Source of the DNA: a virus
IMG/VR virus record: IMGVR_UViG_3300025097_000014
Location: 1 to 41,753 of that record
Length of the DNA: 41,753 bases
Direction: 5' to 3' (one strand)
Shown here: in pieces, positions 1,863 to 21,067 of the stretch
Numbering within the stretch: position 1 is the first letter of the stretch
How the letters are laid out: the number at the start of each line of letters is the position of its first letter
The notes under the pieces: generated by a model
What the model saw: the letters and a program-made list of their open reading frames with translations, nothing else
Told to the model about the DNA's origin: nothing
Database searches by the model: none
Made by a program: the position numbers and the translations under genes

Positions 1863-4800
1863 GTGGCTACGCAGAATGAATTCGAGGTCACCACAGGTGG
1901 CAGTGAACTTACCCCAGAGCAAGAGCAGGCTCTTGTCGATTTCATGTCTATCGAGCCTCCTGAGGTAACGGCACCTGCGTATTCTGCCCCCAAGCTAAAG
2001 ACCGCTGAGACGCCTGATGCGCTGATGGGGGCATACCCAAACATCGGTGACCCGAAGCTTGCTGAGAAGATTGTAGAGGTATCCAACAATCTCGACATGC
2101 CGCCCGCCGCGTTGGCTGGAGTCATCGACCTTGAGACTGGGGGATCGTTTGATCCTGCGCAGCTTAATCTGGCAGGTAGTGGTGCTGTTGGGCTGATTCA
2201 GTTCATGGGATCAACGGCACGTGGGTTGCTTCACGATGCCGGTGAAGAAGGCTTTGCGCCGTCTAAGTACCAGAACACCACGAACTATAGAGAAGTAAAA
2301 GCGGAAGATCGATTCCGCGCCATGGGTGCTGTTGAGCAAATGGGCTGGGTTGAGCGGTATCTGAAGCCATACAAGGGCAGGCTCGATACGATTGAAGATG
2401 TCGGAATGGCGGTCTTCTATCCGAAGGCCATTGGCAATCCAGACTACAACATTGCGGCTGACTACGACCGCATAGGCCCTGGTACTGGCGCTCGATTTAG
2501 AAAGCAAAACCCTGGCATCGAGACTGCCGGCGACTACATGAATAAGCTTCGTGGTCGAGCGGTAACCAGCTTCAGGCAGCGTGGCCCTGTAGAAGAGCCA
2601 GAGAAGCCCAAGTTTGAAGAGACTCGCATTGCGCCGCCTGGAAAAATCCCTGATCCAGAGTTGGCAGAAGCCCTTTTGGAGAAGCTGCGCATCCAGAAGA
2701 AGAGTGAACTTGAAATACAGTTCCCTCTCTTTAATGACGAAGAGATAAACGCCAAAGCTGACGAGTTTGTCAGGCAGCACCGCATGATTCCAACAATGGA
2801 GTTTAGAGGCCTTCGTGCAGCCACAACCCGAATCAGCCCAATCTCATCTGAGCCTGTGTTGTCTTCTTTCGCTGCAAGACTTCACGGTCTACGAGAGAAG
2901 CAGAGCGAGATTAAGGCCACCCTAAAGGATCACTTTGATCGTGGTGAGTATGTAAAGGGCGTTGCTGCCGCATCAACGATTGCCCATACAGGAATGCTTC
3001 CAAGTGAAGGCACCCCACTGGAAGAGATGGATCCAGAGCTTGAGGCGTGGACAAAAGAGGGCGAAGAGAAGGGCCTTGAGATTGGCTATACGCTGCCCGC
3101 TACAGGGTTGGTCGTTGGTGGCTACTTGGGTGGATTTACTGGTGCGATGTTGGGCGTTGGCGTTGGAGCATTGGCTGGTGCGGAGTGGAATACTGAAGAG
3201 AGATTTATTGAGGATGCGGCAAAGAGACTTGCCTACATTGCCGAGATTCCGGCCCTCTCTCTGAAGCTTGAAAAGCTTGGTTCACGCGCCACTGCATCCA
3301 TTGTCGATTCAGTTGTTGGCGCTGCCGAGACGCTGGGTGTGGAAAATCCACAACAATACGTTGAGTCTGCCCGTCAAACATTAGAAGACTGGTCAGAAAC
3401 TATGGAGCGGCGGGAACAGGCGGGCCTTCGTGGCTCATCTTTGCCCGAAACCGCCCTGGACCTTGTCATCTTTGGCCCCGCCGCCACCCCGTTACGTGAG
3501 TCACTTGAGGACGCCCTGCTTCGAATCTCACAGACTGCGCTTTTGGATGAGGCGGGTCGAAAAGAGATTTTTGAAGATCGTGAGCGATACATTCGTGGGG
3601 CGCGGCTCACAGAAAATGTGCGTGGGGTCTATGAAGTAGCGCGCAAGATGAAAGAGAATCCCGACAAAGCGGAAGAACATCAGGCTGAACTTGTGTTCCT
3701 GATGAATACGTTGACATTCTCTGACCTGGAGGACCAAGGGCTGGCCAACGCCGAACTGGATGTTGAGGGATTCAAGGCCGCAGCGAGCGACTTGGATAGT
3801 GATGAAGTCTCAGAACTTCAGCTTGACGTGTTTGCGCCAGCCTTGACTCAAGCCATCCGCGCAGTTCATGAAGACAAGACAGACAAGGAAATAGACGCCC
3901 TGCTAAAGGATGTTCCCGTTGGAACGTTGGCTCATATTCAGCCTATCGATGAACTTGTCCCATCGATGGAGCAGATGGAGAAGTGGGCCGAAGAGAAGGT
4001 CGACATCGTGTCTGAGACTGGTGGAACGGCCACTCGTCAGCTTGAGAACTGGGCCAAACGCAAGTTCATGTCAGTCGAAAAACGCGATGGAACCTACTAC
4101 GTTGTAGAATCGACTACAGGGAAGATTTTTCGGTGGGCCGGTGGGTTTGCTACCGAGGCAATACTGACCCCACTTGAGCTTGCGATAAAAGGTCATACGG
4201 GATTCGGTGTAGTGAATGACCCAGACAGCCTTTTGGACATTCCTGCCCTGTACTTTGCCCGAATCGGGACTGGCGAGATTGGTGTTCAGCCGCGTGTTCT
4301 GGACATGCTTAAAACTGCTGGTGTAAAACGCGACACCTTAGAGTATCTTTTTGCAAACCTCGCTTCGATTGCGGCTGATTTCCTTATTCCGTTTGAGACC
4401 CCGTTTATCTCAGCGGCTGGGCGGACTGCAAGGGTCGGAGCTATTCAGCCGATACAGGGTGCAAGGCTGGCTGCCACTGGCCGACCGTATGGCATGGGTG
4501 GCCAGGGCTTTCTCGCTGGTGCTTTGCCCTCTGTGTACAAGTACCGACATGGGTTGAGAGACAAAGATGCTCCAACCTCAGTGCATCACTTCCACAAAGC
4601 CTTGGCTGACACGGCTGTTGCACAAGGTAAAAACCCACTTGACGTGTTGCCTCGAAAGGTCAAAGACAACGTCATTGAGGCTCTTCGGGTCTTTGGTGTT
4701 GATCCAGACAATGCAATGCAGGCATATTCTCAGCACGTGCTCGATAGCGGTTCCGTGCATGGTCGTGCGGTTGATATTGCTGCTCGCGGCGAGACCCCTG

Positions 4801-7800
4801 GTGATGTCACGATGCGCGAAGGGGATGGTTACAGACAGTTCGTTGAAACATTGGATACGTTCGCCCAGCAACGCAAATGGGACGCTCGCGCCAATCCAAT
4901 GATCCAAGCGGTCTTTGAGACGCTTGCTGGCCGCCTGGCTTCAGACCCAGATGTTCCCAACATTAACACCCCTCAGGACTTCTTTGAGAACGTCATACGT
5001 CTACAGGAGGGGGGTGAGCCCGGCCCATTCGCCCGGTATCAGATCGCAGATGATATTCCTGACTTAAATCCAGTCGAATACAAGGTTGCGCTGGGCGCAA
5101 TGAGTAAGCTTGCAGACCTGGACGTGCCCAAGGGGCTTCGCTCTTTGGAGCATGATTTTACTAAGACAAGGCGCGGGTCTCGTGGCCAGAAGATTGCGTC
5201 TGGTGCTGCTGAATATGTGAAGTTTAATGAGTATCGAGCGTTAATCGAAGACTCCCTCAGGTCGAGCTTCGGTGACGAGTTTAACGTTTATTCGCTCATG
5301 CCAAAGGAGATGCTTGCCTCTTGGCGTGGTGGTCGCCTGGACGGCCCGATCAGTACCTCCTTAACGCCAGAGGGGGCGCACGCGCTGAAGCGTCACCACC
5401 CGGTGAAGCAGCACGAAGACCTGGTTTTGGTTGAGATTAAGGCAAGGCCGGAAGATGCTTGGATGATTGGGTCGTTGGATGATCTTGAAGTCGTCATGAG
5501 CATGCAGGGCAAGCCTACGAAGAATCTAAAGGGTTACCCCCTTGGGCTTCAGGATTCCGGTTCGGTGCGGCCCGTCAGTGTGGATGATATTCGGGGGGTA
5601 GGTAAAGACGCCAGGATTGACGTTGATTCAGACCGATACTTTCTTGATCTCTTGAATAAGATGACGGGCAAGTCAACGGTCGATGACCTTACCGCTTCTG
5701 AGCGTGAGGCTGTTCTTCAGGGGATCTTAAACGGAAGCCTGAATGCAAAGTATCGGCCTGGAAAGAAAAAGGCTCCAAAGGTTTCTTGGACCAAGAAGCA
5801 ACTTGATGAGTTGACAGCGGAGGAGAGAAAACACGCCGAGGAGGTGATGAAAGAAGAGGCCGCCAGGAAAAAAGCCGAAAATGAAGAGAGAGGTGCGGAG
5901 TTAAAGAGGCTGCAAGAAATATACCTGGTTAAATCGCCAGATAACACAGGTGTTCCTGAAACGTTGACTCAACGCAGCAGAGCATCCATGAAGGGTTTTG
6001 GGAAGCCGATTGCTTTGGGAACCACCGTTAAGAACGCTGTTAGATCCTTTGCCCGTCTTGATGAGATTACTGCCAAGCTGGGTGGCCGGAATCCGCTGGA
6101 AAGCAACTCTCTTTGGAATGGTTATTGGAGTGAAGTCACTGGTGAGAAAGTAGTGATGCAGCCGCCCCATAAGGTGGTCGAGTATCTGGCTGACCCTCAG
6201 AACATTGCTGATACGTTGGGCACCCTAAGTAACAAGCAGATTTCGATGGCTGACGGTGGGGTTGACATTACCCAGCGGATTGGAAGCTTATACCGAACCG
6301 GCAAGGCTGACATTACAACCACAGGGCAAATGGTCTTGTGGTCTATTCTCAGCAGGACTTTGTCGTCGTACCCACATGAGAGTGGGTTTATAGATTCGTT
6401 CATGTCCAACGTTAAGCCTTTCATTAAGGCTGCCGCTGAAGGCAAGTTTGATTCAGAGATGCTGGACCGGTACCGGGTTTGGGTTGGTGCGAGCCAAACG
6501 AAAGCTGAGATTGCATCTTTAAGGACACAGGGCAAAAAGCCTAGTAAAAAGACACGAGAAATCGCATTAGAGCGATTGTTGGAATCCGGGGCTATCACTG
6601 AAGCGGAGGCAGAGTCCCTTCGGTTGACCCCGCCCGCTATTCGTGATTCCGGCCCTGGCCAGCCATCGGTATTTAACTTGAATGGATTTGGGGATCAGTT
6701 TCTTTACAAGGCTGGTAAATTTCTCCCTGACGGTCATCCTCATGCTGGGAAGACGGCCCTTAACGTTCTTCACGAAATGCTTATGGATGACTCAATATCC
6801 TCCAAGCAGATTCGTCGTGAGTGGCATGGCATGGTGCATAAATCAGGGGTAGACAACAAGATTCTATCGTTCTTGATTATGGTTTCTGGCCGAACCGATG
6901 TGATTGTTATTGACCGGGTTCAGGCCAATCACTTTTGGGACATTACTAATCGGAAATATGGTCGTGGAATCAAGGATCTCTATGAAGGGTTCGCCAAGAA
7001 AACAACGAAGGCTGCTTGGGATCTTTGGATGGCAAACCCAAGGGATTTCTCAAGTAAGCGTGGCCTTGCGGATGTTCTCGGAGGGGCGAGAGGCCTTGCT
7101 CTTTATGAGGTAATTGAGGACGCGCTTCTGAAGAACATAGCTGAGGGGTATAGGCTGGCTGGCCGTGGTGATGTTGGGTCGGTTTCTCGCTTCCATTGGG
7201 AAAGTTGGGTGGCATCAAGTGGGCAGGAGGTTGGCCACGGCACGTTGGCTATCCTGCTTCGGGACGCACTTGGGGTTCAAGAGCCTGCTCGTGGCGTTTA
7301 TGTTCGCGAGGGCAAGTTCGCGATGAAGCGGTACGGGATAAAATATGTCCCGTTCGAAGACGGTTCTCGTGTTTATGTAATGGAGGATTCTGTCGGTCGT
7401 CCTTATGTCTTGGATTCTGAGGCATTTACGGAATACAATAAGATTCTCGACAAGCACGCGAAGAATAAAAACATAAAAAACAGGGTGGTACCTCGTGGAT
7501 TCCTCATCTCAGACCCAAGCGCAGCAGGAATCCCCTGGTTCCACCGTACAGGAGTCAACAGAGCCAACCTCGATAGACTCATCGCCAAAATTGGACGCAG
7601 AGCAACTCTTAAAGAGGCTCTTTTACTCAAAGCTCGTGCCGACAGAAATTACGGGGTTGTCGAATACCCAGGACAACGACTCGACGACCGAGTAGCCCCG
7701 TTACGGATTGCTTTCGGAGACCCCCCTCCAGCTAAGGAGGTGGTTGTAGAGGCGGCTTTAACTGGTGTCCAGGCGGCTCGACCTGAACTTGAGGTCTTAA

Positions 7801-10800
7801 AAGAGCGGTTCCTTTCCGTCGCGAACAGCATAGCTGAGGCGAAGGCTAAAGGGGGACCGACCGCCACTTTGAGCGCTAAGCTTGAACGCATTGAAAGCAC
7901 GATATTTTCTGGGTTTGAACCGGCCTTGCGGGATGTTCTGGATGAACCAGGTATCGAGATTGTTTCGCTTAAACGCGGTCTTGGGGGATGGGGCGCAGAA
8001 GAGCTTGAGCCAAACATTCGTGTCCAGCTTGTTGGGGACGAGGCACTGATTCGTGACCGGTTGGCGAAGTTTAACAGCACGTCTGGAATGAGCGGTGATG
8101 ATGCCGTATCTCAAGGCGGGGCATTGAGCCGGGTCTTTGTTGAGGTCATTGAGGACGCGCCTGATGTCATTGGCAAGCCGCTTGATCGGTCTGTTTTAAG
8201 TCAGCTTGTTTGGGATGATGGCGGCGTTGAGCGGCTGGCTACGCTTCGGATTGGCATGCCAGATGAGATGCTTACACCGGAGGGCTTGGCTGAGCTTGGG
8301 CCGGTCCTCAAGAAGCACTCTATTGGCTTTACGGTGGACCGAGGGTTGGGAACCCTGGAGTTGACTCACACTCCAGAGTGGAACTCCATGAACGCTGGCG
8401 ACACGTTCGATGTGTTTCTTCTTGCTGCGCGAGAATTCATGGATGTAGCCCGTAAGCAGCATGGCTCAGATATTGAGGTTGCATGGGTTAAAGAGCGCGT
8501 TTTGATTAGCGCGCCAGAGGCCGGCAAGGTATCTGTAAATAATGCACTTGACACGGGCGTTTCCGAGTATAAAATAACGTCATATCAACAGGAGTTTACT
8601 GATGGCATACGCGAGACTGGAAGAGTTCAGGAGGGACTTGGCGAAGGCGTTGGGGAAAGATCCGGTACCGGACGACTTGGAGATGCCGCCACCAGGGAAG
8701 CTGGACTTGAGCCACTTGAAGCCGGGGATGGTCGAGGCCTCCGTGAGTCTGTTGGGGGGGAGGTCGCAAGAGAGGGTGGAGCCGCAGGCGGGGACGCCGG
8801 AATACGAGGCCCCGAGGAACAAAGACCTCCTGTTGTAGAGGAGGAACCAACCGACCCACGGATTCGGTATCAACGCAGGGCCGGTAGAGCGCTCGGCTAC
8901 TTCGAGTGGGACCAGGCATCGGCCAAGTACGTCATTGCGCTGTTCCGCGATGGTGACCTGAACACGCTGTGGCATGAGCAGGGCCACCTCGTGTCAGCCA
9001 TTATGGGCGACCAGTGGATGGATAGGCTGGTCCGTTATTTCGACCACGAAGTTTCGCCAGATGGTGCGTATCGATTGTCCGACATTGGTGAAGAGCAGCT
9101 TGCTGATGCGTGGATGAGCTACATGCAGACGCGATTCTCACCATCCGGCCCCGTCAAGCGGCTGTTTGAGCAGCTTATGTGGACCCTGAAAGAGGTCTGG
9201 CGCAGGCTTCGTGGCAAAGATCCTGCTGTTCCAGCAGAAATGCGGAGACTTTGGGACGGGTGGTTGCGTCCAGACTTGCGTGGCGAGCGCTATGCTATTG
9301 ATGTCCAAGATGCTGTGATGCGAAAGCGGCATCCGGTGGTTGCACTGGAAGACACCCCGGCTGAGAGAATCGAGGCAGAGGCCGTCAAGAAGGCTGGTCG
9401 CGCGCGCGAGTTTGCTCGGGTTGATCTACGTCCAGAGTCCGTCCGCACCGCATTGGGCGGCAAGATGGAAATTGTCATGGAGGATATCAGCCCAGACCCT
9501 GATGTGCCTGAGCTTGCTCCCAGACGCCGACCAGTCACTGGTGAAGTTGATGCTGTTGAGTTGGTCAACAATGCGATTGCATATGTCGCGACCGAACATT
9601 TTAAGCGTAGCATTATTGGCGAGGAATGGGTGCGACTGACTCTGCGGACCCACATACCTATGGCTCGGATGGCCAATGTTCAAAACGCTGTTCGCACTCG
9701 CCTGATTGACGCGATTGGTTCTCAGCCTAAGCACCTAAAATACTACAATAAGGGTGCAACATTGCCGCCGGAAGTGTCTGCCAGAATCGGCTCTCAGACC
9801 GGATTGGTCGCACGTATTGACAACGATATTATTGACCTATCTCCAGCACAGGCTGCTGGCATGAAGACGCTTGTTCAAGAGATTGCATCTGAGCCGTTAG
9901 CCAACATATTGCCTGATGCTCTTTTGTATCCTGATGCTGATTTTAGAACCATGACGGTGCAGCAATACAATACCGTTCTCGAAGTATTGGTTGATGTTGA
10001 GTCTGGCGTTGCATCGAGGGCCACCAGATACGCTGAGAATATCTCACCAACGCTGGCTCACGCGATGATTAACGCGATGAAGACAGCCGCAAACTTTGCT
10101 ATCAAAGACATCAATGCATTAAAATCGATTCGAGATAAGATTAAAGAGTCTTTTGTAGTTCCACGATTTGCTGAGGGCTACATAGATCCCACTACAAGAG
10201 AAATCGTTGAGACGAGCATCCGTGAGTTGGGCACTGTTGACCGTTGGCTGCTCAACATGGCTGACCGTGCAGTCAAAACTGATGACGCCACCACGTGGCG
10301 CGGTATCTATCAGAGCATGGTCGGGCAACTCGTAGCTCCCGTCGATCCAGGTCAAACGTCTCAGCTATTCGACATGGTTAGGCGGTTCGGTGGCGTTCTT
10401 GAGGCAGAGGCGGGTCGGGTTGCGCGCGTCGAGCTTGGTGAGATTGGTGCTGGTTACGAAATGATTCAGATGACCCGGATGGAGCTTTATGGCCGGCTCG
10501 ATGCCATTCAGGGGTTGCTCCAGAACAGCAATGGGTTGTCCGACATGGAGCGCAAGGCCCTTCGGTTGCTTCGAACCTATGAGCGGGTGCCGATTGAAGA
10601 GCTTTCGGATGCCGATCTTTATGCTATTGGTGATGCAATCAAGCATATTCACGGAGGCTTGCTATCACGACGAGATGCAGTAGTTCAAAGAGCCAAAGAA
10701 CTTGCAATGGGTCTTGAGGGCAGTTCTGACGCCAACCTTGCGTCTGAAATGAACTTGCTCGAATACAGAGAAATATACGACCACTTCTATCGTGGTGATT

Positions 10801-13118
10801 TTGAATGGTTGTTTGATTTCACTGGGAGAAAGGGTCGAGAACTTAACGCAGATCCAACGACCATTGCAGAGTATGACCAGTCTGTTGCTGTTTTGGAAAT
10901 GATTGCGCGCATGAGGGCTGACGAGATTATCGGGCAGATGTCCCGCAGACTTGCTGAATATGGCATCACATCCGATGTCACGAAAGTCACTGAGTTTAGA
11001 AAGTTCGGACCAGGCACATCGCTTGATCGGGACAAGTTTATCGATTCTGTTGCGTTCTACATCAACAAAGAGATGAATTGGGATCAAAACACGTTTTTGT
11101 ACAAGCAGTCTGGCCGTATCTCTCCACCACCAGCCCCAATAAGTGATGGGACATACGCCATTCATGAAATGCCAGAAGGTTCCGGTCCCGGTCGTTTCGG
11201 GATCGGCACCCATGACATGCTTGCCTACACGAAGGCCCATGAGCTTATTGCTCAGTGGGGATTCAAGCTCGGAAAGGGCAAGTGGGAACGGTACACAATG
11301 CCTGATGGAACCAGCACCATGGTTCCGATGATGGTCATGAAAGAGATTGAGGACGCTGTTAGCCGTGCAGCGGCAGTCGGCTATGCGTGGGGCAACAAAA
11401 GCAAAACATTGCGTTCGACCAGAGGCAATGTAGCGCTGGATCGGCCAACCAAGAAGCCAACCAAAGTCCAAGCCCAGATGATGCTATCCAAAGCATTCGA
11501 CACAATCATGGACATGAATCCCATCACGGCCTCGCGGATCAAGATGGGTGTCACAACTGGTATTGGAGTTCCGAACCCTGCGTACTTCGCGGGTGTGTCT
11601 TTGGGTGCGCTGTTCCAGGCATACCAGACACAAGGGGCGTATGCTGCTGGCAAATACCTGGTCAGAGCGCCAATAACTGCGCTTAGAGTCTTGGGCCGTA
11701 GGCCAGACATGGTTGGGGCAGTCACGGCCAGAATGTGGAAAGAGGGCGGTTACGCACCTCATGCACCAGCCATCGTGACCAAATTTGGCCAAGTCTATAC
11801 CGACGACATGGTTGGCCATTTAGCGATTCGTGAAGGCATGAAGTCCAGCTTCATTCACGCTGAGACAACTCAGGCCATCGCCAAGGACATCGAGCAGAAG
11901 ATGCCCCAGTTCATGGGTTGGGCGCGTAAGTTTCCAAAGTGGTGGCAGAACAATCTCATTGAGGTTTCCACGGCTATCGACAACTACTTCCGCGTAAGCA
12001 TCTTTGTCGATGAGTTGGCTATGGGTAAGTCGCCATCGGCTGCGGCAGCAATCGCTCGAAAGGCCGGGTTTGACTACGCTGACTTGACCGAGTTTGAGCG
12101 TAAAACCATGCGCAACGTCATCATGTTCTACTCGTACCAGAGAAAGAACCTTGACCTGTTCTGGGACACGTTCCTCAGAAACCCGCAGCGGCTGATTGCT
12201 CAGATGCGCCTCATCCGTGGCTCACAGCGGCTGGTGCTTGATGAAGACGACCCCATGGTTATCTTCCGCGAACACATGCACACACGGCTGTTTGCTGGGT
12301 CGGTGAACAGCTTCTACAACGCTCACTTCAATAGCGGAATGGCGTTTGTGCTCCCGATGCTTCCAGTAGAGGACGCAATACGGCTTCTTGCTGATCTATA
12401 CGATGCGGCTGCATTCGAGGGGACAGAGCGTGGCCAGGAAGCCTATCGTGGCCTTGTTTCGCGCACGACACCGTGGGTCCAGGGGCCATTTGTCCTTGCT
12501 GGAGAAAAGGACTTCTACTTTGGCCATGACATCAACCGGAACAACGTGGTTCCAGGTTGGCTCATGGAGTTGGATTTCAACTTGACTGGCGGCCTGCTTT
12601 ACCAGTGGCTCAACGTGAAGCCAACGAAAGTAAAAAACAAGGCATATGAAGAGGCTCCAGGCCGACTCCAGTTCGTTGCGCAAAATGGCAGCAACTGGTG
12701 GCTTTGGCGCAACATGATGCAATTCCCTGGTGCTGGCCGCTCGATGCAAACCTTCACCGCAATGGACCGAGCTAACCTTGGCCCTGTAGAGATTCTGGTT
12801 GAGCTTTCAAATCTCGCAAGAGAGGTTCTACGCTCCCCCCTGGAAGATGTTGGGTGGCTGGATGCACCAAAGGGCGGACGAAAGGTCACTCCATACGAGG
12901 AACTACCAGAAGAATGGCGTAAAGAAACCATGCTTCCACGTCCAGACCTTTACGAAGGTGACCCCACGGATTTTGCTATTCTTGAGTTCTTGGGTTTGAT
13001 GGGTGCAAGGCCAAAGGCTATGAAAAGACCTTATGTTCGCGCAGGTGAGTTATTTGAACGCAAGCGTTATGAGTTAGAAAGAACGACGAAAGAAATGGAA
13101 CGCTCTGATGTACTTTGA
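1863..13118 (+). CDS. giant polyvalent virion-type protein (3751 aa) with lytic transglycosylase and zincin motifs
   Basis: One uninterrupted frame of 3751 codons starts at a GTG preceded by GAGGGTTCA. Residues about 60-235 look like an SLT-type lytic transglycosylase: E91 in DLETGGSF is the likely catalytic acid, followed by the GAVGLIQF signature (108-115). Residues about 405-440 are hydrophobic and Gly-rich and could insert in a membrane. Residues 1135-1214 faintly resemble an ADP-ribosyltransferase fold. Residues 1304-1355 are a charged coiled coil. H2371-E-Q-G-H2375 is a zincin-type zinc motif, with E2410/E2411 as a possible third ligand. Residues about 3367-3440 match the C-terminal pattern of large polyvalent phage proteins of the LPD38 type (YSYQRKNLDLF). 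Such proteins are thought to be packaged and injected, opening peptidoglycan and delivering effector domains. The SLT and HExxH assignments are firm at motif level; the rest is tentative. Confidence 0.9.
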   Translation: MATQNEFEVTTGGSELTPEQEQALVDFMSIEPPEVTAPAYSAPKLKTAETPDALMGAYPNIGDPKLAEKIVEVSNNLDMPPAALAGVIDLETGGSFDPAQLNLAGSGAVGLIQFMGSTARGLLHDAGEEGFAPSKYQNTTNYREVKAEDRFRAMGAVEQMGWVERYLKPYKGRLDTIEDVGMAVFYPKAIGNPDYNIAADYDRIGPGTGARFRKQNPGIETAGDYMNKLRGRAVTSFRQRGPVEEPEKPKFEETRIAPPGKIPDPELAEALLEKLRIQKKSELEIQFPLFNDEEINAKADEFVRQHRMIPTMEFRGLRAATTRISPISSEPVLSSFAARLHGLREKQSEIKATLKDHFDRGEYVKGVAAASTIAHTGMLPSEGTPLEEMDPELEAWTKEGEEKGLEIGYTLPATGLVVGGYLGGFTGAMLGVGVGALAGAEWNTEERFIEDAAKRLAYIAEIPALSLKLEKLGSRATASIVDSVVGAAETLGVENPQQYVESARQTLEDWSETMERREQAGLRGSSLPETALDLVIFGPAATPLRESLEDALLRISQTALLDEAGRKEIFEDRERYIRGARLTENVRGVYEVARKMKENPDKAEEHQAELVFLMNTLTFSDLEDQGLANAELDVEGFKAAASDLDSDEVSELQLDVFAPALTQAIRAVHEDKTDKEIDALLKDVPVGTLAHIQPIDELVPSMEQMEKWAEEKVDIVSETGGTATRQLENWAKRKFMSVEKRDGTYYVVESTTGKIFRWAGGFATEAILTPLELAIKGHTGFGVVNDPDSLLDIPALYFARIGTGEIGVQPRVLDMLKTAGVKRDTLEYLFANLASIAADFLIPFETPFISAAGRTARVGAIQPIQGARLAATGRPYGMGGQGFLAGALPSVYKYRHGLRDKDAPTSVHHFHKALADTAVAQGKNPLDVLPRKVKDNVIEALRVFGVDPDNAMQAYSQHVLDSGSVHGRAVDIAARGETPGDVTMREGDGYRQFVETLDTFAQQRKWDARANPMIQAVFETLAGRLASDPDVPNINTPQDFFENVIRLQEGGEPGPFARYQIADDIPDLNPVEYKVALGAMSKLADLDVPKGLRSLEHDFTKTRRGSRGQKIASGAAEYVKFNEYRALIEDSLRSSFGDEFNVYSLMPKEMLASWRGGRLDGPISTSLTPEGAHALKRHHPVKQHEDLVLVEIKARPEDAWMIGSLDDLEVVMSMQGKPTKNLKGYPLGLQDSGSVRPVSVDDIRGVGKDARIDVDSDRYFLDLLNKMTGKSTVDDLTASEREAVLQGILNGSLNAKYRPGKKKAPKVSWTKKQLDELTAEERKHAEEVMKEEAARKKAENEERGAELKRLQEIYLVKSPDNTGVPETLTQRSRASMKGFGKPIALGTTVKNAVRSFARLDEITAKLGGRNPLESNSLWNGYWSEVTGEKVVMQPPHKVVEYLADPQNIADTLGTLSNKQISMADGGVDITQRIGSLYRTGKADITTTGQMVLWSILSRTLSSYPHESGFIDSFMSNVKPFIKAAAEGKFDSEMLDRYRVWVGASQTKAEIASLRTQGKKPSKKTREIALERLLESGAITEAEAESLRLTPPAIRDSGPGQPSVFNLNGFGDQFLYKAGKFLPDGHPHAGKTALNVLHEMLMDDSISSKQIRREWHGMVHKSGVDNKILSFLIMVSGRTDVIVIDRVQANHFWDITNRKYGRGIKDLYEGFAKKTTKAAWDLWMANPRDFSSKRGLADVLGGARGLALYEVIEDALLKNIAEGYRLAGRGDVGSVSRFHWESWVASSGQEVGHGTLAILLRDALGVQEPARGVYVREGKFAMKRYGIKYVPFEDGSRVYVMEDSVGRPYVLDSEAFTEYNKILDKHAKNKNIKNRVVPRGFLISDPSAAGIPWFHRTGVNRANLDRLIAKIGRRATLKEALLLKARADRNYGVVEYPGQRLDDRVAPLRIAFGDPPPAKEVVVEAALTGVQAARPELEVLKERFLSVANSIAEAKAKGGPTATLSAKLERIESTIFSGFEPALRDVLDEPGIEIVSLKRGLGGWGAEELEPNIRVQLVGDEALIRDRLAKFNSTSGMSGDDAVSQGGALSRVFVEVIEDAPDVIGKPLDRSVLSQLVWDDGGVERLATLRIGMPDEMLTPEGLAELGPVLKKHSIGFTVDRGLGTLELTHTPEWNSMNAGDTFDVFLLAAREFMDVARKQHGSDIEVAWVKERVLISAPEAGKVSVNNALDTGVSEYKITSYQQEFTDGIRETGRVQEGLGEGVGERSGTGRLGDAATREAGLEPLEAGDGRGLRESVGGEVAREGGAAGGDAGIRGPEEQRPPVVEEEPTDPRIRYQRRAGRALGYFEWDQASAKYVIALFRDGDLNTLWHEQGHLVSAIMGDQWMDRLVRYFDHEVSPDGAYRLSDIGEEQLADAWMSYMQTRFSPSGPVKRLFEQLMWTLKEVWRRLRGKDPAVPAEMRRLWDGWLRPDLRGERYAIDVQDAVMRKRHPVVALEDTPAERIEAEAVKKAGRAREFARVDLRPESVRTALGGKMEIVMEDISPDPDVPELAPRRRPVTGEVDAVELVNNAIAYVATEHFKRSIIGEEWVRLTLRTHIPMARMANVQNAVRTRLIDAIGSQPKHLKYYNKGATLPPEVSARIGSQTGLVARIDNDIIDLSPAQAAGMKTLVQEIASEPLANILPDALLYPDADFRTMTVQQYNTVLEVLVDVESGVASRATRYAENISPTLAHAMINAMKTAANFAIKDINALKSIRDKIKESFVVPRFAEGYIDPTTREIVETSIRELGTVDRWLLNMADRAVKTDDATTWRGIYQSMVGQLVAPVDPGQTSQLFDMVRRFGGVLEAEAGRVARVELGEIGAGYEMIQMTRMELYGRLDAIQGLLQNSNGLSDMERKALRLLRTYERVPIEELSDADLYAIGDAIKHIHGGLLSRRDAVVQRAKELAMGLEGSSDANLASEMNLLEYREIYDHFYRGDFEWLFDFTGRKGRELNADPTTIAEYDQSVAVLEMIARMRADEIIGQMSRRLAEYGITSDVTKVTEFRKFGPGTSLDRDKFIDSVAFYINKEMNWDQNTFLYKQSGRISPPPAPISDGTYAIHEMPEGSGPGRFGIGTHDMLAYTKAHELIAQWGFKLGKGKWERYTMPDGTSTMVPMMVMKEIEDAVSRAAAVGYAWGNKSKTLRSTRGNVALDRPTKKPTKVQAQMMLSKAFDTIMDMNPITASRIKMGVTTGIGVPNPAYFAGVSLGALFQAYQTQGAYAAGKYLVRAPITALRVLGRRPDMVGAVTARMWKEGGYAPHAPAIVTKFGQVYTDDMVGHLAIREGMKSSFIHAETTQAIAKDIEQKMPQFMGWARKFPKWWQNNLIEVSTAIDNYFRVSIFVDELAMGKSPSAAAAIARKAGFDYADLTEFERKTMRNVIMFYSYQRKNLDLFWDTFLRNPQRLIAQMRLIRGSQRLVLDEDDPMVIFREHMHTRLFAGSVNSFYNAHFNSGMAFVLPMLPVEDAIRLLADLYDAAAFEGTERGQEAYRGLVSRTTPWVQGPFVLAGEKDFYFGHDINRNNVVPGWLMELDFNLTGGLLYQWLNVKPTKVKNKAYEEAPGRLQFVAQNGSNWWLWRNMMQFPGAGRSMQTFTAMDRANLGPVEILVELSNLAREVLRSPLEDVGWLDAPKGGRKVTPYEELPEEWRKETMLPRPDLYEGDPTDFAILEFLGLMGARPKAMKRPYVRAGELFERKRYELERTTKEMERSDVL
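7495..7695 (+). CDS. possible overprinted small gene inside the giant gene (weak)
   Basis: This 66-codon frame opens at GTG 7495 inside the giant gene but in a different frame. AGGGTGG (7482-7488) lies 6 nt before the start. The product has a Ser/Thr/Gln-rich first half and a second half that could form an amphipathic helix (AEQLLKRLFYSKLV). Over the same stretch the giant protein is unusually Arg-rich and its codons shift toward CGA, AGA, GGA and CTC, unlike its neighbours, which would fit double coding. It overlies what appears to be an inter-domain linker. A chance open frame remains quite possible. Confidence 0.2.
   Translation: MDSSSQTQAQQESPGSTVQESTEPTSIDSSPKLDAEQLLKRLFYSKLVPTEITGLSNTQDNDSTTE
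8602..8838 (+). CDS. candidate overprinted gene (78 aa) inside the giant gene
   Basis: An ATG at 8602 is preceded by AGGAG (8590-8594) with ideal 7-nt spacing, and CAACAGGAG matches the leader motif used by genes on the right arm. The 78-residue product begins with an amphipathic helix (MAYARLEEFRRDLAKAL) followed by a Pro/Glu-rich tail. Codon third positions in this frame are overwhelmingly G or C, as in real coding sequence. The giant protein over the same bases is a degenerate Gly/Glu/Arg/Ala string just before the zincin domain, as expected of a linker that tolerates overprinting. Function is unknown; no family was recognised. Confidence 0.45.
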   Translation: MAYARLEEFRRDLAKALGKDPVPDDLEMPPPGKLDLSHLKPGMVEASVSLLGGRSQERVEPQAGTPEYEAPRNKDLLL

Positions 13119-13988: not shown

Positions 13989-14414
13989 ATGCAGGGGTTC
14001 ATTACAAACACGACCCAGACATCGCTTGGCACAGGCTCGTTTACAACTACGCTTATGGCGGAGCAGACGAGTGGGACTCCAAGCGATGCCAGGTCCAGAG
14101 CGTTGCCGCAGGCGTGTGACTTCGCGCAGTTGGACCTCGCGTTTAGTTCTGTTGCCGACGCCGACACGTTCACGTTTGATGTCTATCTGACGTGGGATAG
14201 TGCAGGAGATGACCCCTTGACTGCTAAGGCTTCGACCGTCTCCAGCACTGCTGGCGGTACTGCGAATACATCTCACACGGTGATCTCGTTGGACCGTTTG
14301 TTTGTGACTGCGCCATCTGGACAAACAACTGCTGGCAAGTGCTACTTGTGGATTGAACCGACTGAGGCGGTTGTTCTTGAGAAGGCCCGGCTTCATTGGC
14401 ATGACAACAGTTAG
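13989..14414 (+). CDS. unknown beta-rich virion-type protein
   Basis: This 141-residue protein has a strong AGGAGG 6 nt before its ATG. It is rich in Thr, Ser, Ala and Asp with alternating hydrophobics, and it ends with WIEPTEAVVLEKARLHWH, suggesting a small beta sandwich. It lies between the lectin-like gene and a short fibre-like gene, 27 and 8 bp away. No named family was recognised; a structural (decoration or fibre-accessory) role is inferred from composition and position. Confidence 0.65.
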   Translation: MQGFITNTTQTSLGTGSFTTTLMAEQTSGTPSDARSRALPQACDFAQLDLAFSSVADADTFTFDVYLTWDSAGDDPLTAKASTVSSTAGGTANTSHTVISLDRLFVTAPSGQTTAGKCYLWIEPTEAVVLEKARLHWHDNS

Positions 14415-14422
14415 GAGTAGCG

Positions 14423-14704
14423 ATGCCCAGCTTCAATTCAAGCTTTACTGGTGGTGGGCAGACGCTTGCCCTTACTGGCCTTGAGGTAGGGGGTACGGTT
14501 ACCCTCAGAGAGCAGGCCGATGCTGATGCTGACGCTGCGACCTACGGTCAGTTGTGGGTGAACACCGCGACACCGAACGAACTGTACTTCACGACCGATG
14601 CCGGTGACGACATTCAGCTAACCAGTGGCACAAGCAATGCGGCTGGTGGCGGTGCTGCGGCCAACACTGCGGACACCATTCTTCACATGCAAGTCTTCGC
14701 ATAG
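14423..14704 (+). CDS. small tail-fibre-like protein
   Basis: This is a 93-residue protein. The segment YGQLWVNTATPNELYFT followed by DDIQLT is a pattern I associate with phage tail-fibre and virion-surface proteins, where it forms short beta strands. The start (MPSFNSSFTGGG) and end are Gly/Ala/Ser-rich and probably flexible. It is 8 bp behind the previous gene and 9 bp ahead of the next, within one virion-protein operon. The fibre call rests on this motif alone. Confidence 0.6.
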   Translation: MPSFNSSFTGGGQTLALTGLEVGGTVTLREQADADADAATYGQLWVNTATPNELYFTTDAGDDIQLTSGTSNAAGGGAAANTADTILHMQVFA

Positions 14705-14713
14705 GATTTAATC

Positions 14714-15076
14714 ATGGCCACTATCTCACGTATCAAGCTCAGCGGCTCCACCAATGGTAAAGGCATTGTCGTTGCGGCTAACGCCACCACTGGAACGACT
14801 ATCCACACGGGCTCATCGACTGCCGCTGACTACGAAGAAATCTGGCTGTGGGCGTCGAACTTCAACACGTCCGCAGAAGTGCTGACACTTGAATGGGGCG
14901 GAACAACCGAAGCGGGCGACCACTTCAAAACCACGATCCAACCCAATGAAACTGTATTGGTAGCGCCTGGGTGGATTATCAAGGGCAACGCCTCCCCGCT
15001 GGTTGTCACAGCGTTCAGCACGACGATAAACAAAGTCAACATTGTAGGTCACGTCAACCTGATCGATGCAGCATAA
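14714..15076 (+). CDS. unknown beta-rich virion-type protein
   Basis: This 120-residue Thr/Ser/Ala-rich protein has a regular hydrophobic alternation typical of a small jelly roll, including EEIWLWASNFNTSAE and LVAPGWIIKG. It has no Cys and no recognisable active site. It resembles the four small proteins at 17123-18858 in size and general plan (a strand, an exposed loop, then a hydrophobic P-x-G/GW turn), but similarity is too weak by eye to call it a paralog. Probably a head or tail decoration subunit; inferred. Confidence 0.6.
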   Translation: MATISRIKLSGSTNGKGIVVAANATTGTTIHTGSSTAADYEEIWLWASNFNTSAEVLTLEWGGTTEAGDHFKTTIQPNETVLVAPGWIIKGNASPLVVTAFSTTINKVNIVGHVNLIDAA

Positions 15077-15078
15077 GA

Positions 15079-15879
15079 ATGGCACGGACAAGAATCCCAG
15101 GGCAGGTTGCCTACAAGTCAGTAGGCAGCAATAGGCCACCCCACTTGGGCTGGCGGCGGTTTTTGCTCAATGACATCGGGATTATAAAGTCGGACCCGCA
15201 ATCTCAGGAGGGCAGCGTAACCGAGAATGAAAGCTACACACTCTGGACGGCTGCCAGCAGCGTGACGATCTCCGGTACGCACGGTGGTAAACCTCAGATG
15301 GGGTGCTGTTACGCCAAACTCTTGCTTGATGCGAACGGCAACGTGTTGAACCTCCAAGACTCATGGACAGTTGAGGTTTATTTGGAGACCCTCACGGCAC
15401 GGGCAGACCTCACAACGCCAGCCCAGAAAATCTACTACGGTCTGGGCATCACAGATAGCACCAGCAGCGGTACCCCGGCTGGCAGTGACCTATCCAGTGC
15501 TGACCAGTTTGGATGTACATCTCGATGGGTGAAGGACGGAAGCTCAGGCCAGTCCAACAACCGTTGGCGGAAGAACGGCCATGAGAATGCAGGTGATTGC
15601 AATCGAAACTGGAACGTGTATTACACCATGCATCGTGGGCCCAGACGCCAGGCCGGTACGGCGTTTTCGTTGACTACGCATCGCTTCGATCCATCCGATA
15701 CCACGCTTGGGCAGACCAACCCGAACTACTTCACAGCAGGCAGCTACCCACTAGATACCTCGGGGCCAGCGTACCTATTCGCATCCTGCGGGATCACTGA
15801 TACTTTCTCGTCTGATACCAGAGAGATTAAGTTCCGAATCTGGTACAAGGTGACGGGCGGGGGAACATGGCCGACATGA
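15079..15879 (+). CDS. large subunit of duplicated surface-protein pair, copy 1
   Basis: This is a 266-residue protein. I chose ATG 15079 (MARTRIPGQVAYKS) rather than the longer frame from 14971, because the start and its TAAGA-ATG context are conserved in the paralog at 16091. Both share a PPHLGWxRF block near residue 20, then a beta-rich body with RRGPR (in both copies) and a YLF...GITDTFSS-type C-terminal section, suggesting a jelly-roll fold. The stop overlaps the start of its small partner (ATGA). Probable virion surface or receptor-facing protein; function unknown. Confidence 0.7.
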   Translation: MARTRIPGQVAYKSVGSNRPPHLGWRRFLLNDIGIIKSDPQSQEGSVTENESYTLWTAASSVTISGTHGGKPQMGCCYAKLLLDANGNVLNLQDSWTVEVYLETLTARADLTTPAQKIYYGLGITDSTSSGTPAGSDLSSADQFGCTSRWVKDGSSGQSNNRWRKNGHENAGDCNRNWNVYYTMHRGPRRQAGTAFSLTTHRFDPSDTTLGQTNPNYFTAGSYPLDTSGPAYLFASCGITDTFSSDTREIKFRIWYKVTGGGTWPT

Positions 15880-16088
15880 CACAAGCTGACATCAACAACA
15901 ACCCGATCAACGAGGCAAATGTCTGGCAGGGGTCAGCAGCGGAAGACGAAGCACCCGAGACAGACACGATCGGCTTGGTTGTCCGTCTGGACAAGTCGGT
16001 CTTCGATGCCGCCGCGTCAGATCCAGACATCGCCAAAACGGTGTTCGAGTGGCTCTCCTCGAAGATTGAATCTACGAGAGTTGAGTAA
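15876..16088 (+). CDS. small partner of duplicated surface-protein pair, copy 1
   Basis: This is a 70-residue acidic protein. The ATG at 15876 (MTQADIN) overlaps the previous stop as ATGA and aligns with MTQDELN of the copy at 16885; an alternative in-frame ATG at 15867 sits closer to the GGGGG ribosome binding site. Both copies share a VFD/HWDAA core and a C-terminal V-x-x-WL-x-S-K motif. The small size, acidity and strict coupling to the larger gene suggest a chaperone or assembly partner of that protein; this is inference. Confidence 0.65.
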   Translation: MTQADINNNPINEANVWQGSAAEDEAPETDTIGLVVRLDKSVFDAAASDPDIAKTVFEWLSSKIESTRVE

Positions 16089-16090
16089 GA

Positions 16091-16876
16091 ATGGCACGGA
16101 CGCGCATTCCAGGACAGGTTGCCTACAAGTCGACGGGCGTTAACGCGCCACCGCATTTGGGTTGGACCAGGTTTGATTTGGGTAGCGCCATGATCTCCGA
16201 CCCATTGAGCCAGACGGCCAGCTTGGTCGACGATGGCGACAAGTTGATCTGGACCTCCAATAGTTCGGTGACCATTGATAGTGGAGCCAACAACCAGTAC
16301 CCTAACTGGGGCACCTGCTACATCCATCCGGTGCGAGACGCCAATGGGATGGGCCTGACCTTTGCGGATAACTTCGACGTGAAGTTTCTAATCGAAACGA
16401 AGGAAGCCACCCCCGCCGACTTGCAGGACACATTCATCTATTATGGATTGGGTATCGGAGAGGGCTTCTCTGCGGACATATCGGGCAACAAGTGTCTTGG
16501 CCTCGCCCGACACTGGTATGACTACAGTGCCGGTTCTAACTATGTTCGCCGCCGTTTCTTCGGTAAGAACAACCACTCCGAGTTTACCCACAACAATCAG
16601 ACGTGGCTGGTACAGGGCTCGTTCAGGCGGGGCCCACGGTACGCTGGCAACGGCGGGAGCTTCCTGTGTGATGAAATCTCATATGACCCCACAGACACAT
16701 CGGGGACTGGGGATAGCTCATTCACAAGCATGAACCATGGGACCAGCAAGATAACGAGCACAGGGCAGGCGTATCTGTTCCTAACGGTTGGCGTGTCTGC
16801 AACCATTAGCAGTGCAGTTGCAGCAGACTTCAATATCTACTACCAAGTCACGGGCGGACTGCCCTTCGTTCCATAG
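16091..16876 (+). CDS. large subunit of duplicated surface-protein pair, copy 2
   Basis: This 261-residue paralog of the product at 15079 has a nearly identical start (MARTRIPGQVAYKS) and a conserved PPHLGW block. The bodies have diverged but keep order and landmarks such as RRGPR and a terminal YQVTGG (YKVTGG in copy 1). The DNA around both starts is also conserved (TAAGAATGGCACGGAC), so this is a tandem duplication rather than convergence. It starts 2 bp after the small partner of copy 1. Probably a variant surface or adhesion protein. Confidence 0.7.
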   Translation: MARTRIPGQVAYKSTGVNAPPHLGWTRFDLGSAMISDPLSQTASLVDDGDKLIWTSNSSVTIDSGANNQYPNWGTCYIHPVRDANGMGLTFADNFDVKFLIETKEATPADLQDTFIYYGLGIGEGFSADISGNKCLGLARHWYDYSAGSNYVRRRFFGKNNHSEFTHNNQTWLVQGSFRRGPRYAGNGGSFLCDEISYDPTDTSGTGDSSFTSMNHGTSKITSTGQAYLFLTVGVSATISSAVAADFNIYYQVTGGLPFVP

Positions 16877-16884
16877 AGAGCCGA

Positions 16885-17085
16885 ATGACACAAGACGAAC
16901 TAAATGCAGATGACCTTACCCAAGCCCGGTTGGTCCCGTTTGAGTTTTCGTCGGGTGAGACTGGTAAAGTAGAGAAGATACAAGTACAGTTTGAGATAAG
17001 GAAAGAGCATTGGGATGCTGCCATGTCGAGTGGTACGCAGGCAAATGTTCTGATCGATTGGCTTGAATCTAAGAGAGTCGGATAA
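16885..17085 (+). CDS. small partner of duplicated surface-protein pair, copy 2
   Basis: This 66-residue protein begins 8 bp after its large partner and aligns with the 70-residue product at 15876: MTQ start, a central beta/charged part, HWDAA near residue 46 and a WLESK end. The two copies have diverged strongly outside these points, arguing for an old duplication with both copies kept. Function is unknown; partner-specific assembly or capping is a reasonable guess. Confidence 0.65.
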   Translation: MTQDELNADDLTQARLVPFEFSSGETGKVEKIQVQFEIRKEHWDAAMSSGTQANVLIDWLESKRVG

Positions 17086-17122: not shown

Positions 17123-17500
17123 ATGGCACTCTCAGTTGCGCGATTTGAAAGCGACAAGCTTAAATATAAAACTGTTGTAGATACGGCTGCGCCCACCACA
17201 GCGACCACAGATGTTACCCAAGACAATGGGAAGCTATACTCAATAGATGTGGAGAATGGTTCGGCATCTACTGTGGCTTTTGTTAAGATCACTCTAACCG
17301 ATGTTGTTGACGGGGTTATCCCAGGCACCACACACCCGGACATTGTAGTCATGTGTCCCACAAGCGCTAATGTTCGATGGAAGATGCCTGACGGAATCAC
17401 GTTTACCAAGCTTAGCTATTGGACAGTAAGCGACCCTGGTGTTTCATCTACTGGCGCAGTCAGTGGCGGAAACGTAAAGGTCACATTCGTTACTTCTTGA
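17123..17500 (+). CDS. small beta-sandwich protein, family A copy 1
   Basis: This is a 125-residue protein with the N-terminus MALSVARF, a central segment with the pattern P-G-T-x-x-P-D, then MPDGITFTKLSYWTV. The same order occurs in the product at 18106 (MALKGTRF; VGTSTPQ; LPSGFAFTNLHFWAT), so the two are paralogs. The beta-rich, Thr/Ser/Val-heavy composition suggests a decoration or fibre-accessory subunit. It pairs with the gene at 17510, and the pair recurs at 18106/18475. Confidence 0.65.
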   Translation: MALSVARFESDKLKYKTVVDTAAPTTATTDVTQDNGKLYSIDVENGSASTVAFVKITLTDVVDGVIPGTTHPDIVVMCPTSANVRWKMPDGITFTKLSYWTVSDPGVSSTGAVSGGNVKVTFVTS

Positions 17501-17509
17501 GGTGTAAAG

Positions 17510-17893
17510 ATGACTGTAACTGCTGGAACTGTTGCCGATGCGTTGGCTGGCGTTTTGATCACAGATGCAGACGCGAAGAGTACATCTGAGCCGGATGTCT
17601 TTGGTGGAGTGAGCATCGTGTATACCGTTGAAGTCGACAACACGGCCAACGCGAGCCAGGCCCAATACCTGAAAATCCACAACGCTGCCTCAGGGACATC
17701 CAGCAATGTAAAGGCAGAGTCGGTCTTCTATATTCCTGCTGGTGAAATAGTAACTTACGTCTGTGATACTGGAACAACATACGGCACTGGTGTCACATTT
17801 TGGGTTACTCAGACCCAGGCCAGCTATGATGGTAGCACTGAAGCCCAGAGCAACCCAAGCAGCACCGTTTCAGCCAAGTTGCTTGGAACCTGA
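17510..17893 (+). CDS. small beta-sandwich protein, family B copy 1
   Basis: This is a 127-residue protein starting 9 bp after its family A partner. VEVDNTANASQAQYLKIH and the later YIPAGEIVTYV align with IDNTANPDPVYAKLK and YAAAGSVVTYA of the protein at 18475, which identifies the pair as paralogs. It also shares a general layout with family A (hydrophobic strand, loop, aromatic FW turn), so all four may descend from one ancestor. No enzyme motif is present; a structural role is inferred. Confidence 0.65.
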   Translation: MTVTAGTVADALAGVLITDADAKSTSEPDVFGGVSIVYTVEVDNTANASQAQYLKIHNAASGTSSNVKAESVFYIPAGEIVTYVCDTGTTYGTGVTFWVTQTQASYDGSTEAQSNPSSTVSAKLLGT

Positions 17894-17904
17894 CGGAGAA
17901 AATC

Positions 17905-18096
17905 ATGAAGGCACTATTCACGTCTCTCTTTGACTCCCAAAAACGCATTTCCTGGCGTCGTTTGGCGGTTCTTGCCCTGGGCACGGGGCTTCTCATGATG
18001 GGAATGCTCGACTCAGCCCAGTGGCTCTATCTTGGCCTTGCCTACATCGCTGGTGACAGTGCTGAGAAGGCCATGGCCGCTCTCAGCAAGAAGTAG
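17905..18096 (+). CDS. small membrane protein, holin candidate
   Basis: This 63-residue protein has a basic N-terminus (SQKRISWRRL) followed by a hydrophobic stretch from about residue 20 to 50 (LAVLALGTGLLMMGML, then WLYLGLAYIAG), long enough for one or two membrane helices, and a short charged tail. It sits between the two copies of the A/B beta-sandwich pair, 11 bp and 9 bp from its neighbours. Size and topology fit a class II-like holin, but small phage membrane proteins are often unrelated to lysis, so the call is tentative. Confidence 0.55.
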   Translation: MKALFTSLFDSQKRISWRRLAVLALGTGLLMMGMLDSAQWLYLGLAYIAGDSAEKAMAALSKK

Positions 18097-18105
18097 GTTC
18101 GATGA

Positions 18106-18468
18106 ATGGCATTGAAGGGCACCAGATTTCATGGAACTGCGGTATCCTACCGAGTCATTTACCAGGGTGATGCGAATGCTACATTGAACAAAAATGTAGC
18201 AGATGTAGATGGCACGTTGAAATCTGTGATTGTTGAGACCGGTGTAAAGAGCGATGCATATCTAAAGCTTTTCGACGGCAGTGCTCCTATTGTCGGAACA
18301 TCTACACCTCAGCTTATCTTTAGATGTCCGAAAGGAATGACTCAGGTATTTGAACTCCCGAGCGGATTTGCGTTCACTAACCTACACTTCTGGGCAACAA
18401 AAAACGCGAATCCTCTTGATGTTATAAATCCTGAATCAACAACTAAAGTCACTCTTCTTGTTGGCTAA
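18106..18468 (+). CDS. small beta-sandwich protein, family A copy 2
   Basis: This 120-residue paralog of the product at 17123 shares the MAL..RF start, a central acidic and Val-rich strand, GTSTPQ, and the aromatic turn GFAFTNLHFWA. The local DNA is AT-richer than its neighbours (for example many AAA, ACA and CTT codons), which may mean that this copy was acquired separately rather than arising by simple tandem duplication. It lies 6 bp before its family B partner. Confidence 0.65.
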   Translation: MALKGTRFHGTAVSYRVIYQGDANATLNKNVADVDGTLKSVIVETGVKSDAYLKLFDGSAPIVGTSTPQLIFRCPKGMTQVFELPSGFAFTNLHFWATKNANPLDVINPESTTKVTLLVG

Positions 18469-18474
18469 CTGAGT

Positions 18475-18858
18475 ATGGCGTTTCTTAAAACAAATTTAGC
18501 TGACCAAAAATCACTCGCTGGTTTGCTTATTGTCGCACCTGATTTGACTGAAAACCCAGAGTTACTCATCACTGGAAATGTGGCGGGTTCGTTCTATTTG
18601 GTCCGCATTGACAATACTGCAAACCCAGATCCGGTGTACGCAAAGCTAAAGGATGGTGTAGCAGTATCGCCCGGCACTGACCATCCAGATTGGATCTTCT
18701 ATGCTGCTGCCGGCTCCGTGGTCACCTATGCTATCCCGCTTGGTGCTTCATATTCCGCAGGGCTGTCCCTTTGGTGTGTTCTTGGTGCAGAGTCAACGGG
18801 TGGTGACTCTAACAATGGGCCGACGAACGATGTCATTGTTCGCATCGTAGCAAATTGA
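18475..18858 (+). CDS. small beta-sandwich protein, family B copy 2
   Basis: This 127-residue paralog of the product at 17510 shares the IDNTANP motif near residue 43 and AAAGSVVTYAIP near residue 80. It also carries PGTDHPD, a loop otherwise seen in family A copy 1 (PGTTHPD), supporting a common origin for both families. Its stop overlaps the start of the next gene (TGATG), which links the virion-protein run to the membrane/lysis cassette in one transcript. Confidence 0.65.
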   Translation: MAFLKTNLADQKSLAGLLIVAPDLTENPELLITGNVAGSFYLVRIDNTANPDPVYAKLKDGVAVSPGTDHPDWIFYAAAGSVVTYAIPLGASYSAGLSLWCVLGAESTGGDSNNGPTNDVIVRIVAN

Positions 18859-19555: not shown

Positions 19556-19755
19556 AAGGGTTTTTCGACACAAAGATGATCATCTTTGGCATCACTACGG
19601 TATTTCTTGCAGGTGGTGGCTGGATGTCTTTGGGCTCGCTCGGAGACCGGGTGACCAAGCTTGAAGACAAGCAAGACATTGTTGGTGGGGACATCCGAAC
19701 CATGATGAAGAACCAAGCCAAGATGTGCCACGCCCTTAAAGTCGACTGCCAGTGA
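19552..19755 (+). CDS. small membrane protein with coiled-coil tail (spanin- or holin-like)
   Basis: This is a 67-residue protein; its ATG overlaps the previous stop as ATGA. Residues about 8-25 (KMIIFGITTVFLAGGGWM) form a membrane helix; SLGDRVTKLEDKQDIVGGDIRTMMKNQ is a heptad-like coiled coil, and the tail contains two Cys. This plan is common for inner-membrane spanin subunits and for small phage membrane proteins next to the endolysin. It immediately precedes the YkuD-like gene, with which it overlaps (GTGA). Confidence 0.6.
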   Translation: MKGFFDTKMIIFGITTVFLAGGGWMSLGSLGDRVTKLEDKQDIVGGDIRTMMKNQAKMCHALKVDCQ

Positions 19756-20327
19756 AGCCATTCCTGCTCGATTATGTTGAGTCTCTGGGCCACGCAGTAT
19801 TCACTGAAGGCATCTACAATCTCAACATCGTGGGCATCCGAACGAAAGAGAGCAGCGCTAATACATTCGATGACCGGATGTGTGTTGTCTTTCGAGACGA
19901 ACTGGGCTGGATCACTCGAACCTGGCCATGTACCACAGACCCTGGGCAATACTGGCGAGACAACCCCAGCAACGTGGCTGGCACCGCCATCCTTGTTCCC
20001 GGCCAGTACAGGGGTGTGTACAAGATTGGAAGGCACCGGGGCCAGTATGATGCCTTGGTCCAGCGTGGGTCAGCCGTAAAGGTCTACAGGGACGCCAACA
20101 AGGACGAGGTCTTGGACCATGACCCAGAATCAATCGAAGAGGGGTTCTTTGGGATAAATATCCACCAAGCCGGGCAAAACTCCACCGAAGTCAACAAGTG
20201 GAGTGCAGGCTGCCAAGTGTTCGCCAACAAGGACGACTTCGAGGAGTTCATGAGCATCTGCTATGCTGCTTGTAACAAGTGGGGTGATGGTTTCAGCTAC
20301 ACCCTCATTGACGAACCGGCAGCCTAA
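19752..20327 (+). CDS. L,D-transpeptidase (YkuD)-like protein, possible cell-wall enzyme
   Basis: This 191-residue protein starts at GTG overlapping the previous stop. H138 followed by S151-A-G-C154 (IHQAG...WSAGCQVF) matches the H...S-x-G-C signature of the YkuD-like cysteine L,D-transpeptidase fold, which acts on peptidoglycan stem peptides. No signal peptide is present, so export would rely on a holin or on release at lysis. The position, surrounded by small membrane proteins, is that normally held by an endolysin. Known YkuD enzymes make cross-links; a phage member might instead cleave them. The reaction is therefore not settled. Confidence 0.6.
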   Translation: MKPFLLDYVESLGHAVFTEGIYNLNIVGIRTKESSANTFDDRMCVVFRDELGWITRTWPCTTDPGQYWRDNPSNVAGTAILVPGQYRGVYKIGRHRGQYDALVQRGSAVKVYRDANKDEVLDHDPESIEEGFFGINIHQAGQNSTEVNKWSAGCQVFANKDDFEEFMSICYAACNKWGDGFSYTLIDEPAA

Positions 20328-20980: not shown

Positions 20981-20994
20981 GTTTATCCTTAGGG

Positions 20995-21067
20995 CTGGGG
21001 CGGGTGGACTCGAACCACCAACCTTCCGGGTAACAACCGGATGCGCTGCCAGTTGCGCTACACCCCA
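20995..21067 (-). tRNA. tRNA-Asn (anticodon GTT)
   Basis: The 73-nt minus-strand gene folds as a cloverleaf. Acceptor TGGGGTG pairs with CGCCCCA (one T-G pair), the D stem is GCGC/GCGC, anticodon stem TCCGG/CCGGA encloses loop TTGTTAC (anticodon GTT), and T stem GGTGG/CCACC encloses TTCGAGT. The discriminator is G, as expected for Asn. The 3' CCA is not encoded (the next bases are CCC), so the host must add it. Confidence 0.93.

Follow-up and report, generated by a model that had tools for sequence, protein, structure and literature searches.

Why should a phage genome carry, twice in direct succession, a gene for a large beta-rich protein followed by one for a small acidic protein, and does each small protein serve its own large neighbour? 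The question is raised by the window studied here, the whole 41.7-kb record of an uncultivated virus (IMG/VR record IMGVR_UViG_3300025097_000014, 41,753 nucleotides), in which the large proteins L1 and L2 alternate with the small proteins S1 and S2. Comparison with related contigs suggests that in this uncultivated tailed phage the L-S unit serves as an exchangeable cassette for receptor binding, a reading to which we give a probability of about 0.62. The locus comprises the following features.

14423..14704, plus strand: C, 93 residues, tail-fibre-like but short; its longer relative has a match to a PHROG tail-fibre family
14714..15076, plus strand: D, 120 residues, PHROG 30535 (function unknown), candidate adaptor for the docking tag of L
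15074..15162, plus strand: start-site repeat, copy 1, with the preceding stop codon and the docking-tag codons
15079..15879, plus strand: L1, large and beta-rich, 266 residues; residues 1-28 are a basic tag, the remainder a probable receptor-binding domain, possibly lectin-like
15876..16088, plus strand: S1, small and acidic, 70 residues, ATGA overlap with L1, the fast-evolving copy
16086..16174, plus strand: start-site repeat, copy 2, 75% identical to copy 1
16091..16876, plus strand: L2, the second L copy, 261 residues
16885..17085, plus strand: S2, the second S copy, 66 residues, nearer to the S proteins of the related loci L035 and L039

The tandem duplication of a large beta protein and a small acidic partner, proposed in a preliminary description of this DNA, holds at these positions. 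Both L proteins start with MARTRIPGQVAYKS, and their full-length identity is 41% (BLASTP E 9e-49; in a Smith-Waterman comparison z = 62, with 0 of 1000 shuffles as good). Identity is highest at the N-terminus, where 24 of residues 1-28 agree (86%) as compared to 85 of 223 (38%) beyond (p 2e-6). The conserved start-site DNA noted earlier at both L genes proved to be an 89-nucleotide direct repeat at 15074 and 16086, 75% identical, which spans the L start sites; its first 16 bases, TAAGAATGGCACGGAC, are the same in both copies and contain the stop codon of the gene upstream. S1 and S2 are evidently distant homologues (27% identity, E 9e-7, z = 11, 0 of 1000 shuffles as good); the motifs MTQ, DAA and WL-x-SK are indeed common to both, and their 3' ends contain a 23-nucleotide repeat that is 83% identical. 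The start of S1 is most likely at 15876 (MTQ..., with the ATGA overlap with the L1 stop) and not at the in-frame ATG at 15867.

Codons differ at 66% of the identical L1/L2 residues, and because synonymous sites are this well diverged the duplication appears to be old, with a strongly constrained N-terminus. A recent duplication or an assembly artefact is excluded by the same figure, the copies being too different, and recent gene conversion of the tag need not be invoked, as 10 of its 22 identical codons differ synonymously. Since the tag shows fewer synonymous differences than the rest of L1/L2 (p 0.02), constraint at the DNA level or an old exchange may have acted in this region.

The distribution of L and S in relatives shows what is exchanged. 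Isolate phages, IMG/VR and GTDB genomes gave no matches when searched directly for L, the L proteins had none among 50,697 deposited phage records, and exact-peptide matches to PGQVAYK were to unrelated proteins. Near relatives were reached via RecT and endolysin queries, and 80 loci from uncultivated viral contigs were collected via the gene of a conserved 63-residue membrane-like protein. Profile searches of these loci gave about 40 L and about 18 S open reading frames, near-duplicates counted and a divergent S in L032 included; L proteins measure about 260-315 residues and S proteins about 60-73. The relatives keep their gene order except at one slot, downstream of the tail-fibre-like genes, which is occupied either by one BNR beta-propeller protein of about 385 residues or by D with one or two L genes, with or without S. 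L016 shares several flanking genes with the window at 76-88% identity, but its slot content is entirely different. The propeller family has Pfam BNR and Sortilin-Vps10 matches in 6 of 25 members, and its profile matches Ycf48 and xyloglucanase in the PDB at E 1e-7. The slot region is apparently tail-fibre related, because the C protein of the relative L064 matches a PHROG tail-fibre family (E 2e-5). C and D gave no Pfam match, so a T4gp10-like adapter domain was not recognized by Pfam.

Within the L-type slots the arrangement varies. Two L genes followed by a single S form the common two-L arrangement (eight loci: L023, L063, L064, L076, L088, L094, L099 and L103, plus L100, which is incomplete at a contig cut). 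One L with one S is found in L032, L035 and L047 (L039 is cut), and in eleven loci L stands without S and with no room for it (L024, L026, L048, L057, L069, L074, L077, L084, L092, L101 and L107). The order L-S-L-S occurs only in the window among the collected relatives. S is found only in L loci and its start mostly overlaps the L stop by 4 nucleotides (ATGA). The preliminary idea of a dedicated helper thus stands to the extent that S is tied to one L class, for which it is more likely to be a dedicated assembly factor or cap. A second D gene follows S in L094 (7816-8175) and in L099 (3677-4036).

The N-terminus of L offers an explanation for how such proteins could be exchanged. Every full-length L except that of L035 opens with a basic RxPG-type tag of about 25-30 residues (pattern RxPG...GW-x-F), which carries a charge of +2 to +7 in all RxPG-tagged L proteins; the charge of S is -5 to -10. 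D lies directly before L in 20 of 21 non-redundant cases and before the propeller in 0 of 27 (Fisher p 1e-12). The exceptional L035, a lone L without D, combines an L body with the N-terminal repeat of the propeller family (INSVAAANIAWVNGV), and this propeller-type tag scores 22.8 bits against at most 14.8 among 2000 shuffles. It is the one natural case of independent exchange of body and tag, and as a natural chimera it is the strongest argument for the view that the L N-terminus is best read as a docking module, with D belonging to the RxPG tag.

Trees of L and S bear on the history of the duplications. In the L tree the first copies of the L-L-S loci form one group and the second copies another, and L1 and L2 of the window group with the L of L035 (100/98). 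Approximately unbiased (AU) tests reject placing L1 with the first copies (p 1e-4) and L2 with the second copies (p 6e-7), by which descent of the window pair from the common L-L duplication is rejected. A sister relationship is not rejected for L1 and L2 (p 0.18), nor for S1 and S2 (p 0.19). Because the window copies do not fit within the L-L-S copy groups, L has doubled at least twice, independently, and together with S only in the window. In the L-L-S loci the first L, the second L and S co-diverge (rho 0.43-0.70), as expected for a cassette that moves as a unit; their co-divergence with D, C or the membrane-protein gene is lower (rho about -0.3 to 0.4).

In view of the above, the following mechanism can be considered. 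L would be the outermost, host-contacting protein, docked on the tail-fibre complex by its basic N-terminal tag, probably through the small protein D that is made just upstream. The remainder of L would fold into a beta-sandwich, perhaps of lectin type, and bind a structure on the cell surface. S, whose translation would usually begin at the overlapping start codon, would act as assembly factor or tip cap, and a single S could serve two L proteins. In the window the old duplication of the L-S unit would have left two heads that have since diverged; the phage presumably carries both, and would thereby widen or hedge its recognition of receptors. The earlier proposal of alternative receptor-binding units therefore divides into two parts. 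A receptor-binding role is favoured by the variable slot, the conserved tag with its divergent body, and the propeller as alternative occupant. Switching between the units is not: the two copies point the same way, no inverted arrangement turned up, and a promoter and terminator scan gave signals at or below chance level.

Structural inspection provides a lead on the fold of L. The top Foldseek and VIA matches of a model built from a two-row alignment are L-type (legume) lectins (Z 8.2), from residue 25 on, with a root-mean-square deviation of 4.2 over 167 residues on a model with a predicted local distance difference test (pLDDT) score of 40. The L body is thus possibly a lectin-like beta-sandwich or jelly-roll, to be taken as a lead only. 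A fold search with an S model, also from a two-row alignment, gave nothing usable. For S, Pfam gave nothing at E<0.05, and the PHROG matches, of unknown function, were stray ones of single members; no sequence relation to known tail-fibre assembly or annotated chaperone families was found.

Several points weigh against the receptor-binding cassette. The L model is poor, which leaves the lectin fold at low confidence, and by the tool's own note a Z near 8 can reflect a common arrangement; at the sequence level no PDB match was found for L, and neither L nor S has a Pfam, PHROG or PDB match beyond chance. Both proteins are known here from uncultivated sequence alone, for which host assignment gave no result, and much the same would be observed if they decorated the tail or had a structural part in it.

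Three other explanations of the duplicated unit can be compared with this. The first is compatible with the cassette and would refine it: S1 could be a decaying remnant of the unit duplication, with S2 alone sufficing for L1 and L2. Among the S proteins S1 has diverged furthest, on the longest branch of the S tree (3.53), it lacks the W of WD and the WLESKR consensus, and the other two-L phages carry a single S. Still, S1 has kept an intact reading frame, the ATGA overlap and a score of 73 bits to the family profile, and we consider its decay possible but rather unlikely. The second explanation, which seems improbable, gives L and S no part in receptor binding: they would decorate the surface of the tail or capsid or be minor structural proteins there, neutral drift would have duplicated them, and the slot would be variable because change is tolerated in it. 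This would agree with the multiplication of the neighbouring beta proteins of 120-130 residues and with the finding of no enzymatic, binding or depolymerase signature in L, but three observations indicate a docked head that can be exchanged: a BNR propeller can cleanly take the place of L in this slot, L035 shows a natural swap of tags, and both of the independent L duplications have been kept with conserved tags. Strict L:S pairing, proposed in the preliminary description and comparable to S/U and S'/U' of phage Mu, could account for the S that follows each L in the window, the ATGA overlap of L1 and S1, and the large distance between S1 and S2, as might be expected of specialised partners, but it is quite improbable and unsupported because one S normally serves two L proteins, eleven L loci have no S at all, and L035 has its L beside L1 and its S beside S2, in an S tree that is weak and does not reject the alternative.

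A wider proposition, which builds on the receptor-binding cassette and which we advance tentatively, as somewhat more doubtful than probable, is that one tail position takes two unrelated head types, a beta-propeller or a lectin-like L, via two distinct N-terminal tags. The second tag would need its own adaptor D, and the L heads, doubled independently at least twice, would share a single small cap S. Already on the cassette reading, the locus would be one for host recognition that is widespread in this group of uncultivated phages but unannotated, with a simple sequence rule by which the tag type predicts adaptor and head type; this rule would aid the prediction of receptor-binding proteins in metagenomes when the host is not known. 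The window also illustrates that two genes duplicated so neatly in a genome are not necessarily one-to-one partners.

Upstream of C the locus reads as follows.

1863-13118, plus strand: giant protein, 3751 residues, with a transglycosylase domain near its N-terminus
at 13176, plus strand: LamG-like protein, 261 residues
at 13989, plus strand: protein of 141 residues

The domain of the giant protein is of the lytic-transglycosylase type, and its C-terminal 1539 residues had no match among the 50,697 phage records. Homology of the LamG-like protein with L was not detected. Downstream of S2 lie four proteins of 120-127 residues that are related to one another, likewise in pairs (17123-17500, 17510-17893, 18106-18468 and 18475-18858), followed by probable lysis genes and an endolysin-like protein on the plus strand. 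These beta-rich paralogues flank the 63-residue membrane-like protein (17905-18096), one pair on each side, and because members of different pairs are weakly similar, two rounds of duplication are suggested. Relatives have one or two such pairs. In L020 (8567-9301) and L021 (8396-9133), contigs whose endolysin gene is nearly identical to that of the window, a further diverged pair of E/F type lies about 7.5 kb further downstream, in a region that in the window is taken up by early genes of the opposite strand. The membrane-like protein is 76-87% identical across relatives despite its strongly diverged neighbours, and neither isolate phages nor GTDB genomes nor Pfam gave a match to it; it is a useful marker gene for this phage group. 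The endolysin-like protein (19752-20327) has homologues of 46-54% identity, most of them labelled hypothetical, in Pseudoalteromonas and crAss-like phages, and a tRNA-Asn gene (20993-21067, minus strand) is located where late and early genes meet.

By analogy, the L/S cassette would be close to established precedents, since peptide-docked receptor-binding proteins and fibre-plus-chaperone modules are already known. Receptor-binding proteins docked by a peptide on adapters occur in phages of the K1-5/SP6/K1E and G7C type (PMC6872550). There, too, receptor-binding proteins that have otherwise diverged keep a short N-terminal peptide in common, one phage can carry two of them, their bodies are exchangeable, and the adapter is encoded by a separate gene (PMC6872550); D or C may have that role in the window. 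The L proteins differ in being about 260-315 residues long without a depolymerase signature and in being followed by a small acidic S, and the alternative occupant of the slot is a BNR propeller with its own tag. In EBPR podovirus 3 (JF412296), gp13 and gp14 are D homologues that also stand in tandem, but the gene order is different and no L or S was found by tblastn. Phage Mu has invertible S/U and S'/U' pairs of tail fibre and assembly factor. As in the window, two fibre-plus-helper units are present in one phage; the window copies, in contrast, stand in tandem and share one orientation, no inverted arrangement having been seen, and one helper per fibre is not what the relatives have, as their one-to-one pairing is broken. 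A module of tail fibre and cognate chaperone is common to Alteromonas phages A5 and V22, in a study that also mentions Mu Tfa, and the accessory protein may be a chaperone or a transient cap that is not always needed (PMC10579305). Like the L-S unit, this module consists of a host-recognition gene and a small accessory gene that have moved between phages together (PMC10579305). The L-S unit differs from it in that S, at about 60-73 residues, shows no detected sequence relation to annotated chaperone families, and in that a single S can follow two L genes.
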